Assembly: GCA_022763185.1 (NCBI GenBank)
Contig: JALEGL010000006.1
Location: 363,087-427,086 of the forward strand
From: a bacterium
GTDB taxonomy: Bacteria > Bdellovibrionota_G > JALEGL01
Length of the DNA: 64,000 nt
Reading direction: 5' to 3'
Part shown: piece by piece, positions 60,091 to 63,986 of the stretch
Layout: the number at the start of each line of letters is the position of its first letter
Position numbering within the stretch: the stretch's first letter is position 1
Position numbers and translations under genes: made by a program
Notes under the pieces: model-generated
The model's input: the letters and a program-made list of their open reading frames with translations, nothing else
What the model was told of the DNA's origin: nothing
Database searches by the model: none

Positions 60091-61080
60091 TTAGTCGTCA
60101 TCTTCTTCATCAAAGATATCATCTTCATCAAGACGCATTTCACCCTCTTCAGAAAAGCTAAACAAGTCTTTTTCTGCATCTGCTGGCGAGCGGGTAAAAG
60201 AGTCTTCACCAAAGGTTTCATCAAACTCAGAAAGCTCATCAACGACGCTGTCTTTTTCATCGTAATCAAATTCTTCATCGTCATCAAAGCTAACCGGATC
60301 ACGTAGCGGTGACTCAGTATCAATCAACGTTGCATCTGGATCCACAAACGTTTCCTCAGTGCTCTGAACATGGGTTTCTTCAAGCACCTCATTGGGCTCC
60401 ATTTCAGGAGTTTGTGGCGTTTCTACCACCGGCGTAATAATGGCGTCTTCTTTAACCTTGACGTGTTTTTTGGCGCTGGGCTTCTTGGCCTTTTTAGGCG
60501 CAGCCTTCTTTACAGACTTCTTCTTGGTGGCCTTTTTAGCGGTTTTTTTCTTGCTGGTTTTTTTGGCAGCCTTCTTTTTCGTGGCTTTCTTGGCAGTTTT
60601 CTTTTTGCTTGTTTTTTTAGCAGCCTTTTTCTTACTGGCTTTTTTTATGGTCTTTTTCTTCTTGGCCGCTTTTTTAGTACTTTTCTTTTTAGCCTTTTTG
60701 GCTGTTTTTTTCTTGCTTGCCTTCTTTTTTGTGCTTTTCTTAGCAGTTTTCTTTTTGCTTGTTTTTTTAGCAGCCTTCTTCTTGGTGGCCTTTTTAGCAG
60801 TTTTTTTCTTCTTGGCCGCTTTTTTAGTGCTTTTCTTTTTAGCCTTTTTAGCGGTTTTTTTCTTAGTTGACTTCTTTTTCGTGGCTTTTTTGGCCGTTTT
60901 CTTTTTGCTTGCCTTCTTCTTGGCCGCTTTTTTAGCCGTTTTCTTTTTGCTTGACTTCTTCTTGGCCGCTTTTTTAGCCGTTTTCTTTTTGGCTACTTTT
61001 TTAGCAGATTTCTTCTTCGTGGTCTTTTTTACGGTTTTCTTCTTTGCAGGCTTTTTGCTTGCTTTTTTCTTCTTTGCCAT
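60091..61080 (-). CDS. Lysine-rich histone H1-like protein with acidic C-terminus
   Basis: A 329-residue protein. Residues about 2-210 are an almost unbroken series of KKAxKK/KKxxKKT repeats (AKKKKASKKPAKKKTVKKTT...), as in bacterial H1-like nucleoid proteins such as those of Chlamydia, Bordetella and myxobacteria. From about residue 215 the composition flips to Glu, Asp and hydrophobic (EFDYDEKDSVVDELSEFDETF) and ends EDDD. It should bind DNA through the basic part, with the acidic tail modulating it. ATG at 61080 follows AAAGGA; an earlier in-frame start (61134) adds only a non-repeat segment. The DNA repeats cause many false reverse ORFs. Confidence 0.85.
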   Translation of the reverse strand: MAKKKKASKKPAKKKTVKKTTKKKSAKKVAKKKTAKKAAKKKSSKKKTAKKAAKKKASKKKTAKKATKKKSTKKKTAKKAKKKSTKKAAKKKKTAKKATKKKAAKKTSKKKTAKKSTKKKASKKKTAKKAKKKSTKKAAKKKKTIKKASKKKAAKKTSKKKTAKKATKKKAAKKTSKKKTAKKATKKKSVKKAAPKKAKKPSAKKHVKVKEDAIITPVVETPQTPEMEPNEVLEETHVQSTEETFVDPDATLIDTESPLRDPVSFDDDEEFDYDEKDSVVDELSEFDETFGEDSFTRSPADAEKDLFSFSEEGEMRLDEDDIFDEEDDD

Positions 61081-61217
61081 GGTGTGGGTTCCTTTTAAAA
61101 ATGTAAAATTAACAACATCAATGCACGCATGCATCCAACATGGCCTAGCGTATCACTTCATGGACATTCACTCAGACCCGCAAACGGCATTTATTTTCCT
61201 ATACCGTTTCATGCAAT

Positions 61218-61342: not shown

Positions 61343-61692
61343 GGGGGCGACTGGTTTCGACGGGAGATTGGAACGTTTGGTTGCACGTCGAGGAGGTGCT
61401 TGGCCTCGTAAAAAAAGCACAAACTAGTAATTGATGACAATCAATTCGCAATGGCAGCTTAATTAAGCTACCCGTTCAATTCCCCGATTCCTATTAAGGG
61501 ATGCGAACGCCAAATCAGTAGGATAGTGGAGCAGGGCGTCTGGCCTCTGTTGCATGAAACTTTAGTCAGAATCGCCAATCAAAACCCTGTTTATGGGGGC
61601 TTGAAAGGTTAACTATAAAGCATAAACTAAACGTGTAGTGGCCACTCTGGAAGAACTTTCGGACGGGGGTTCGAATCCCCCCGCCTCCACCA
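61343..61692 (+). ncRNA. ssrA: Transfer-messenger RNA (tmRNA)
   Basis: One-piece tmRNA of about 350 nt. The 5' end GGGGGCGACTGGTTTCGACG and the 3' end with T-arm GGGGGTTCGAATCCCCC and CGCCTCCACCA pair to form the acceptor stem. Trans-translation rescues ribosomes stuck on broken mRNA. The tag-coding frame is at 61430-61462: aligned to E. coli, the resume codon after TAGTA is ATT and the tag would read IDDNQFAMAA, ending in TAA. The CCA is encoded. The H1-like gene lies divergent upstream. Its 3' end is repeated downstream (see repeats). Confidence 0.95.
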
Positions 61693-61727
61693 AAACAATT
61701 GTACCCCGCAGGGGTGAAATTGTTTTG
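61691..61727 (+). terminator. Hairpin directly after ssrA
   Basis: CAAAACAATT pairs with AATTGTTTTG and the inner CCCC/GGGG extends it. It starts at the tmRNA CCA end, as do the hairpins in the repeat copies. There is no clear U-tract, so it could act with processing. Confidence 0.5.
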
Positions 61728-61840
61728 TTGAGATTGCTGAGATTTGAACATGATCCCCGGGTTAGGAGGAACAAAAAGCACTGCTTTTTGTGACGGAATA
61801 CTGGGAGATTCGCCGAAGAGGCGAATCGAGACAGTGCGAA

Positions 61841-61891
61841 AATCCCCCCGCCTCCACCACCAAAACAAAAACCCTGGTTTTGGTGGTCTTT
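61841..61891 (+). repeat. Degenerate copy B of the ssrA 3' end plus hairpin
   Basis: AATCCCCCCGCCTCCACCA (19 bp) is identical to the last 19 bases of ssrA and lies 167 bp downstream of them. It is followed by the hairpin CCACCAAAAC/GTTTTGGTGG and TCTTT, which looks like a terminator. No complete tRNA-like fold precedes it. It is probably an attachment-site scar or a tandem duplication. Confidence 0.85.
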
Positions 61892-61982
61892 AAAAGCTAA
61901 TCCTAAAACCTCAACCCTTTTGCGGGCGCCTTCGAACCCCCTACGGGGTTCGTTCGTATATTTAGGGTCGCTGCGCTCCCAT

Positions 61983-62027
61983 GGCCCCCGCCTCCACCAG
62001 CAAAACAAAAATGGGAAGTTTTGCTGG
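61983..62027 (+). repeat. Degenerate copy C of the ssrA 3' end plus hairpin
   Basis: CCCCCGCCTCCACCA (15 bp) matches the tmRNA end, 140 bp after copy B. It has its own hairpin CCAGCAAAAC/GTTTTGCTGG and the same TCTTT follow-on as copy B. Confidence 0.85.
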
Positions 62028-62160
62028 TCTTTAACGGTTAATCCCTAAACCTTACCCTAGCTAGCGGGATTCGAACCCAGGGCTCGCTGCGCTCGCCCGG
62101 TTCGTCTTTTGTTTGAGTTCGCTTCGCGAACATGGCCCCGCCCTGCGGTGGTTCATTTTT
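62028..62160. repeat. Palindrome-rich tail with weak fourth copy
   Basis: GGCCCCGCC near 62134-62142 resembles the end of copy C but lacks the CCTCCACCA. Upstream a T-arm-like GGGATTCGAACCC appears in inverse orientation and a GTTCGC/GCGAAC hairpin lies at 62117-62131. The related palindromes at 61771-61791, 61807-61827 and 61933-61952 show the array is full of hairpins. The rest of the gap to the next gene (62161-62359) shows nothing I can assign. Confidence 0.45.
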
Positions 62161-62359
62161 ATCTGGCTGTAGGGAATTAAAGTTGTCTTGTTTTGATGTA
62201 TCAGAATAAAAAAGGTTCCTGTTTATTTTTTTTGTGGGTTGGGTATTATTGAAGAAGTAGGAGTAAATATACTTATATTTATCACTACATATAAAAGTTA
62301 AAAATATCATCAGATTAACTTTGGGTAAGTAAAAGTATGAATGTTAAGCAAAAATATAG

Positions 62360-62372
62360 TTCAGTCGACTGT
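62360..62372. repeat. Left 13-bp inverted repeat flanking the accessory gene
   Basis: TTCAGTCGACTGT, whose core CAGTCGACTG is palindromic. Its exact reverse complement occurs at 63753-63765, so the pair encloses one gene. Confidence 0.7.
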
Positions 62373-62437: not shown

Positions 62438-63739
62438 ATGGAGCAAAGTAAATTGAGTCTTCCAACAAAGATTGAAAATAATTTTTTGCAAAGCATCACC
62501 ACTGCTTTAAAACTTCAAAGAGAAGTACTCGCTTCTGAAATAGAAATAGAAGAGGCTTGGCGTCAGTTGCCTAGATATCTTTCCAAAGTTCCAGATAACT
62601 ATAAAAATGCGATGTTAGCAAAAATGTGTGTGGCTATAAAAACTGGATTATTTGACAGTGCGCTTAATTATATCTGGAACCTAGGCATAACAGCGTTAAG
62701 GTCTAAAGTTGATACATTTGGCTTTACAGCTGTCTCAGGTCTTTTAGAGAAAGATATCGATGAGAAGAAATTGCTTGAATGGAAAGATCACGACTTACTA
62801 GACCTTTGTTTGAAAATAAATTTAATTAACGAAGATGCCTTTTTCTTTCTAAATAATTGTAGAGAGCTTAGGAATCAGTATTCGATAGCTCATCCAAATG
62901 AAGTGCTAATAGATGATGCGGAACTTATAGCTTTTCTAAATAGAGTTATTAAATATGCGATAGGTGGTGAAACCAACCCAAAAGGAATTGATCTCAGGGA
63001 GTTATTAGAACTAATACGAGCTAATCAGTTTTCTTCAGATCAATTGTCACAGTGGACAGAGCGTTTCGAAGGCACTCACGAAGCTCAAAGACAAGCTATT
63101 TTTCAGACTCTTCATGCGATTTATTGTGATCCTAAGGAAAATGAGGTTTCCCGAGGTAACGTTCAAGATTTATCTCTAAAATGTTCTGGAAATATTAGTT
63201 CCAATGTTCTCTCTGGTTTAGCTGATCGGCATGGTGAGTATCTTGCCAAGGGTGACGAAAAACGTATCCGTGCCTCTAGAAAGTTTTTTGAAGAGTTAGG
63301 ACTTACATCAGCATTAAGTAATGCCGAACAGTCTACTATATTCTCTAAAGCTGTTGATGACTTGAATTCTATACACAATGGATATGATAACTTTCACAAC
63401 GAACCCCCTTTCGCAGATAGACTTTCAGAGCTTAAGAAACAGTTAGAAGTTCCAGATCATTTAAAAGATAAATATGTTACGACAGTAATATCTTGTTTCA
63501 TAGGTAATGGATATGGAGTATCTAGAAAGGCCGAACCTATATATGAGTCAATGATTTCAAATTTTACTTGGGCAGAAATTAAAATAATGCTTCAGATAGC
63601 AGAAAAGTCAGACAATATTGTTGGTTTTCGCGTTAAGGAAAAAGAAATGTGCAAATCTCGTTTTAAGCAAGCTTGTGTTAAAATAGACTCTAAAAGAGTC
63701 ACTAATGAAGTAAAAATATTATATGATAAGTGGATATAA
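62438..63739 (+). CDS. Accessory protein of unknown function, HEPN-like motif
   Basis: A 433-residue protein, probably soluble, with no family recognised. In the N-terminal half the helix ELRNQYSIAHPNE (Arg145-x6-His152) matches the R-x4-6-H pattern of HEPN RNases, in the usual setting of a helix after a Cys-Arg-Glu-Leu run and followed by a helix with acidic residues. The C-terminal 250 residues are helical (SGLADRHGEYLAKGD, DNIVGFRVKEKEMC) with no Walker or nuclease motif seen. The ATG at 62438 has GGAGAAG upstream. It is the only gene right of ssrA and is flanked by inverted repeats, so it looks acquired. A toxin or phage-defence effector is plausible but unproven. Confidence 0.65.
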   Translation: MEQSKLSLPTKIENNFLQSITTALKLQREVLASEIEIEEAWRQLPRYLSKVPDNYKNAMLAKMCVAIKTGLFDSALNYIWNLGITALRSKVDTFGFTAVSGLLEKDIDEKKLLEWKDHDLLDLCLKINLINEDAFFFLNNCRELRNQYSIAHPNEVLIDDAELIAFLNRVIKYAIGGETNPKGIDLRELLELIRANQFSSDQLSQWTERFEGTHEAQRQAIFQTLHAIYCDPKENEVSRGNVQDLSLKCSGNISSNVLSGLADRHGEYLAKGDEKRIRASRKFFEELGLTSALSNAEQSTIFSKAVDDLNSIHNGYDNFHNEPPFADRLSELKKQLEVPDHLKDKYVTTVISCFIGNGYGVSRKAEPIYESMISNFTWAEIKIMLQIAEKSDNIVGFRVKEKEMCKSRFKQACVKIDSKRVTNEVKILYDKWI

Positions 63740-63752
63740 CCTAAGTTTCTAT

Positions 63753-63765
63753 ACAGTCGACTGAA
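63753..63765. repeat. Right 13-bp inverted repeat flanking the accessory gene
   Basis: ACAGTCGACTGAA is the reverse complement of the left copy and begins 14 bp after the stop of the 433-aa gene. Confidence 0.7.
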
Positions 63766-63805: not shown

Positions 63806-63986
63806 GTTTAGGTGCCAGGTGTATTTTTGTAATGCGTTGTGACTGGAATAGGTATTATCTGGATTGATAATCGGTCAGGTATATTTAGATGCGTATGGAT
63901 GTGGTGGAATTAAATTAATTCCTGTTTATGTGCCAGACGTATTTTTGTAACACGATGCATTTCAAAAATACGCCTGGCACCTAAAC
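63806..63986. repeat. Palindromic element with terminal inverted repeats
   Basis: A 181-bp element. It begins GTTTAGGTGCCAGGTG and its far end is the inverse, CGCCTGGCACCTAAAC. The inverted arms match over about 24 bp with one change and more loosely beyond. The right arm is itself a hairpin: GTGCCAGACGTATTTTTG (63930-63947) against CAAAAATACGCCTGGCAC (63963-63980), with a 15-nt loop. It has no ORF. It looks like a small non-coding mobile element (MITE or REP-like) whose transposase would act in trans. Confidence 0.6.

Follow-up and report, generated by a model that had tools for sequence, protein, structure and literature searches.

Stacked copies of the ssrA 3' end in a Bdellovibrionota_G genome: candidate tRNA-directed repeat units with an rtT-like layout

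Introduction

Why would the last bases of a tmRNA gene be repeated several times in the DNA that directly follows it? This question is raised by a locus in the window analyzed here, a stretch of 64,000 nucleotides (contig JALEGL010000006.1, positions 363,087 to 427,086 of the forward strand) from a member of the Bdellovibrionota_G. Its genome (G000) comprises 2.25 Mb in 15 contigs, and the contig of the window stops ~6 kb right of ssrA. Based on the sequence alone, an original prediction read the array as a heavily used integration site, possibly a stack of emptied islands, and also noted a resemblance to the repeats that follow tyrT in E. coli. In Dehalococcoides, stacked ssrA end copies that bound islands have been documented, and sixteen ssrA islands have an integration module including a serine recombinase (PMC3146451). 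Partial tRNA genes have been described as fragments at the ends of integrating elements (PMC9897764). Our search for literature on rtT or tRNA-linked repeats of such a kind found nothing directly relevant. The rtT repeat (RtT, RF00391) was described at tRNA-Tyr. Long known and unexplained, it has hitherto been an isolated curiosity of E. coli, situated behind one tRNA gene.

Results

The array behind ssrA

The source of the original 3' end is the tmRNA gene itself (ssrA, 61343-61692, plus strand as are all elements of the array; tag DDNQFAMAA), identified by ARAGORN and Rfam. Its last 19 nt, AATCCCCCCGCCTCCACCA, occur exactly a second time at 61841-61859 (19/19 identical), and its last 15 nt, CCCCCGCCTCCACCA, recur exactly at 61985-61999 (15/15 identical). 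These are the copies that had been predicted, and the weaker fourth end noted with them is a decayed copy, CCCCGCC..., read from the sequence at 62136-62150. In a genome-wide search, the 15-mer with at most one mismatch was found at only three sites in the whole 2.25-Mb genome, all of them here. The hairpins made of CCA and CAAAAC are present as well. Hairpin I of unit 1 (61692-61726) directly follows ssrA, its stem beginning within the tmRNA CCA/CAAAACAA; those of unit 2 (61857-61886, CCACCAAAAC..GTTTTGGTGG) and unit 3 (61998-62026, CAGCAAAAC..GTTTTGCTG) follow the two exact copies. The conserved centre of hairpin I, ATCCCGnnAGGGGT, lies at the equal position 3' of Ser, Cys, Leu, Arg and Gly tRNAs.

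Unit 1 (61693-61840) belongs to a different family from units 2 and 3, which carry inverted T-arm pieces. Its type A core (61749-61840), consisting of GGTTAGGAGGAACAAAAAGCACTGCTTTTTGTGACGGAAT, a hairpin and CGAGACAGTG, matches our model R1. The type B core of unit 2 (61919-61984) is a weak match to model R2 (E 0.014) with an imperfect inverted T-arm at 61922-61941. The core of unit 3 (62061-62135; R2, E 4e-11) is composed, in order, of the inverted T-arm GGGATTCGAACCC (62066-62078), GGTTCGTCT, the hairpin TTCGCTTCGCGAA and CATGG, and positions 62066-62078 are a perfect 13-nt reverse complement of 61667-61679. The fold of 61690-62170 is more stable than 100/100 dinucleotide shuffles (z -5.1). 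A leader like TTTAAnnGCTAATCCCTAAGCCTTAAACC was seen at 61889-61920 and 62030-62055 of the window and at loci L009, L042, L056, L068 and L126 (tRNA-Ala of G002), that is, behind tRNA genes of G000 and G002; behind Asn and Ile it is partly inverted.

Units behind other tRNA genes

A BLAST search of 61660-62180 against its own genome returned nine further sites, each immediately following a tRNA gene; the specificities are Ser(tga), Ser(gct), Ser(gga), Cys, Leu(gag), Leu(taa) and Arg(tcg). Intact units close with the 3' end of their own tRNA (Ser, ...AATCCCTCATCCTCCGCCA; Cys, ...CGAATCCGATCGTC-CCTCCA; Leu, ...ATTCCGGGCTCCGGTACCA). Only part of the end is copied behind Arg(tcg) and Leu(gag), and at Ser(gct) the unit is cut off ahead of its copy. 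Additionally, own-end copies occur at Gly(gcc) and Met and, following a type B unit, at Glu; the units of Val, Asp and Leu(caa) are decayed or partial. The inserts measure only ~80-260 nt in nearly all cases and 125-150 nt at the ssrA array. The observation is confirmed as real and not peculiar to ssrA. In the Glu and Ser(gga) arrays the intact copy is the distal one, so the rule that the nearest copy is the youngest fails in some arrays.

Type A is present in seven full copies and one truncated copy, all 3' of a tRNA or tmRNA gene (seven tRNA genes and ssrA) and mostly with the end of their own tRNA. It was sought in the other four genomes sampled from the phylum (G001-G004) and found in none. 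Searches of genome and viral collections with its core pattern were also negative, which leaves this genome as the only known source of type A. Six pairs in its stems are changed on both sides, and 90.7% of cells are paired, versus at most 51% in slid controls; this covariation, which comes from seven related sequences only, is suggestive. Examined for an inverted tRNA piece, type A matched its own tRNA no better than other tRNAs (not significant).

Type B lies at nine places in this genome and behind 10/18 tRNA genes in G003, the metagenome-assembled 'Deltaproteobacteria bacterium HKST-UBA01', which belongs to another family of the same order. Its inverted T-loop is GGATTCGAAC in most units, GGAATCGAAC behind Phe, GGACTCGAAC behind Leu and Asp, and GGATTTGAAC behind Glu. 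With the units of G003 and G000 pooled, it agrees with the local tRNA at 158/160 positions, a value reached in 0/100,000 permutations. The type B pattern was found in 11 stretches of the genome collection, six of them from G003; the other five had no matching tRNA-end array and were taken as chance. Most units of G004 also contain inverted pieces (8-19 nt); several such pieces prolong the post-tRNA hairpin into the acceptor strand. Given that the inverted piece is found in type B and in most G004 units and not in type A, what the families have in common is the direct own-end copy, with an inverted piece in some of them only. The body families differ in sequence: type A is confined to this genome, type B is shared with the sister family, and others occur elsewhere in the phylum.

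Many G004 units (L079, L095, L157, L162) have a TATAAT-like box after the inverted acceptor piece, which could be a promoter for an RNA that ends in the tRNA end copy. Behind tRNA genes of G000 (L003, L005, L050) and G003 (L132, L252), and so in two families of the order, we noticed a second family of palindromic repeats, GGGGAAAAACGCTTTTCCCC ... hairpin ... CACCCCCTTGCGCG. Another palindromic repeat, based on GTTTAGGTGCCAGGTGTATTTTTGTAATGC, occupies 63806-63986 of the window; a similar one, GAGGTGCCAGGCATATTTTGTAACC, lies behind tRNA-Ser(tga) (L002, near 1895).

Own-end copies in the phylum

We sampled the DNA 3' of nearly all tRNA genes in five genomes of the phylum (G000-G004). For each tRNA, the final 26 nt were compared with the 400 nt that follow the gene, other tRNA genes being masked, and the match was scored. 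At a score of at least 22, an own-end copy is present in these 400 nt at 31/149 tRNA and tmRNA genes (8/35, 6/34, 1/16, 4/18 and 12/46 in the individual genomes), compared with 15/745 (2%) mismatched tRNA/downstream pairs within the phylum. At a score of 26 the counts are 25/149 and 2/745, respectively. Among 78 tRNA and tmRNA genes from other phyla, used as controls, no own-end copy was found (0/78). The possibility that the copies arise by chance or as an assembly artefact of short repeats has a negligible probability and is refuted by these statistics: the 19-mers are exact, the controls are empty and the result is replicated in five independent assemblies. Which tRNA genes are occupied varies among the genomes, and units must therefore have been gained or lost repeatedly; the relatives compared are of order and phylum level only. 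The ssrA gene of G002, which is too distant to provide an exact empty site, has no end copies.

Comparison with E. coli rtT

At tyrT/tyrV of E. coli K-12, the rtT units are spaced 178 bp apart and each ends in ATCCTTCCCCCACCACCA. They are tandem units behind a tRNA gene, as here, and each closes with the exact last 18-19 nt of its own tRNA. Moreover, an inner inverted GGGGAAGGAT, the reverse complement of ATCCTTCCCC, occurs once per rtT unit, comparable to type B; rtT likewise has a palindromic T-loop, TTCGACC-AA-GGTTCGA, of the kind TTCGACCAAGGTTCGA, and a leader that is repeated after each copy. Read from the sequence, the layout of rtT is the layout of type B. The predicted likeness to the tyrT repeats thus holds for layout and, presumably, behaviour, but does not extend to sequence. 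The RtT covariance model, which detected E. coli rtT as a control, gave no acceptable match in the five genomes (none in G000 at E<=1; the best, E 0.58, in G001), and the Rfam scan of the window contained no RtT match. A further difference is that many tRNA specificities and ssrA are involved here, with several body families in one phylum.

Complete E. coli genomes have from 0 to at least 5 annotated rtT units. One strain has a unit between both tRNA-Tyr genes, and strains without any unit retain these genes. RtT is annotated as a small RNA processed from the tyrT transcript. In some strains (L263, L264, L267, L268) a seven-gene cluster encoding desaturases, a KAS III-like protein and an F390 synthetase-related protein replaces rtT in the tyrT-narI interval. 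We considered this cluster as evidence of integration and rejected it, since no tRNA end copy lies at the narI side.

Cargo and recombinases

A complete-looking Hachiman pair (HamA, 283 aa, and HamB, 697 aa; minus strand; L185 2133-5080, C6:427132-430079) lies close outside the right edge of the window, at 2-5 kb from the array and near the contig end. Behind tRNA-Ser(gga), an apparent arsenic operon (arsR-like, DUF6428, arsC-like, SBF-family permease) and a phage lysozyme fragment precede the distal end copy, which is intact, 14 nt long, 3.3 kb away and has a type B unit ahead of it. At tRNA-Met there are two type B units with genes between them. Arrays and cargo thus go together. The idea of a heavily used integration site gains some support from the Hachiman genes and from the arsenic operon bounded by an intact tRNA-Ser(gga) end. 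However, no integrase adjoins ssrA or any other arrayed tRNA gene, and none was found right of ssrA up to the contig end (~6 kb). The clear Y-recombinases of the genome are two XerC/D-like enzymes, so labelled from the size and number of the proteins, and two partial ones beside tRNA-Pro. The genome yielded no serine recombinase or resolvase-type enzyme, and a further ssrA end copy, sought across the assembly, was not found either.

Discussion

Our preferred reading, which we consider about evenly poised, is that the array consists of three stacked rtT-like units belonging to a repeat system that is directed at tRNA genes and can spread from one to another. Each unit is a non-coding, structured segment of ~140-170 nt directly behind a tRNA or tmRNA gene and closes with the T-loop-to-CCA segment of that gene in a second copy, which leaves the gene intact. 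Units may move between tRNA genes within the genome, and the local tRNA end would be duplicated when a unit inserts. Arrays might then grow, shrink and decay as their repeated ends recombine, and could permit the build-up of cargo, defence or arsenic genes for example. If the units behave like E. coli rtT, the tRNA promoter may also drive their transcription by read-through, and they may be released when the tRNA is processed. The bodies are common to different tRNA genes and each has the local end; at the level of sequence, this indicates that a unit has spread among tRNA genes, rather than that independent islands left their remains.

Emptied islands are the main rival, a minor though serious chance in our estimate. 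The integrases of past islands would have recombined within the T-loop, so that each island had a tRNA end copy at its distal border; after deletion of the islands, the attL/attR arms, here types A and B, would remain stacked. The T-loop and 3' end of tRNA genes are indeed a classical integration site, and our copies begin in the T-loop. Inserts that terminate in a directly repeated 3' end of their gene are present (61841, 61985 and, 3.3 kb away, at tRNA-Ser(gga), with the arsenic operon and lysozyme fragment in between), and Hachiman lies right of ssrA. At the Dehalococcoides locus, too, the ssrA 3' end is directly repeated several times downstream of the gene, each repeat starting in the T-loop, with cargo nearby. 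However, those repeats bound gene-bearing islands (PMC3146451), whereas here they enclose structured inserts of 125-150 nt without a recombinase, and the bodies are common to several tRNA genes. Partial tRNA genes are similar as gene fragments next to mobile DNA, but were reported from the ends of elements rather than in arrays with conserved bodies and inverted pieces (PMC9897764). One conserved body is not expected among unrelated emptied islands, and bodies shared by tRNAs of different specificity disagree with an attP, which has one fixed tRNA end. The small size of nearly all inserts and the missing integrases and serine recombinases also count against a stack of emptied islands, and stem covariation is unexpected for att arms. 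Phage and plasmid collections contained nothing similar; two viral-contig matches were unrelated sequence and are attributed to chance. Integration scars and unit spread can nevertheless both act at the same sites.

Alternatively, the units could be a selected cis-acting RNA domain, whose inverted piece and second tRNA end would switch the pairing of the tRNA 3' strand and thereby time processing or termination of the tRNA transcript, arrays arising by ordinary tandem duplication. The own-end and inverted pieces track the local tRNA, the stems covary, strong hairpins stand right after the tRNA (in G004 paired into the acceptor strand), and the annotation of RtT as a processed small RNA would agree with such a role. 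We nonetheless think this explanation unlikely, given that occupied tRNA genes vary among the genomes of the phylum and most tRNA genes have no units, that ssrA of G002 and the tRNA-Tyr genes of some E. coli strains do without them, and that type A has no significant inverted piece. Moreover, conserved bodies at unrelated tRNA genes require spread beyond local duplication.

If units do spread among tRNA genes, no known transposase readily accounts for the retargeting of both the direct copy and the inverted piece of type B. Copying of the local end by a long target-site duplication, by unusual site-specific recombination or by hairpin-templated copying is possible. Readings as integron attC-like sites or as products of tRNA-primed reverse transcription were discarded, as the positions of the inverted pieces do not fit. 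More speculatively, and with some doubt, the units might represent an undescribed class of non-autonomous elements aimed at tRNA genes generally, which rebuild the local end, directly and in some families also inverted, by an insertion or copying chemistry unlike that of known transposons; E. coli rtT would then be a stranded member.

The rtT layout recurs behind about one fifth of tRNA genes in a distant phylum, with bodies unrelated in sequence, which points to a more general phenomenon. Food for further study is how a repeat gains the end copy of whichever tRNA precedes it, and the many arrayed tRNA genes are natural replicates for this question. For annotators, we advise caution: not every tRNA end copy is the scar of an island.

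Two neighbours of the array merit mention. Nearer to it than Hachiman is a 433-aa ORF (62438-63739) with no Pfam or PADLOC match; it is flanked by perfect 13-bp inverted repeats, TTCAGTCGACTGT and ACAGTCGACTGAA (62360-62372 and 63753-63765), and ORF and repeats are possibly a small mobile unit. Before ssrA and divergent from it, 60091-61134 encodes a protein without a Pfam match that is rich in lysine and alanine, has an acidic tail and resembles the histone H1 type.
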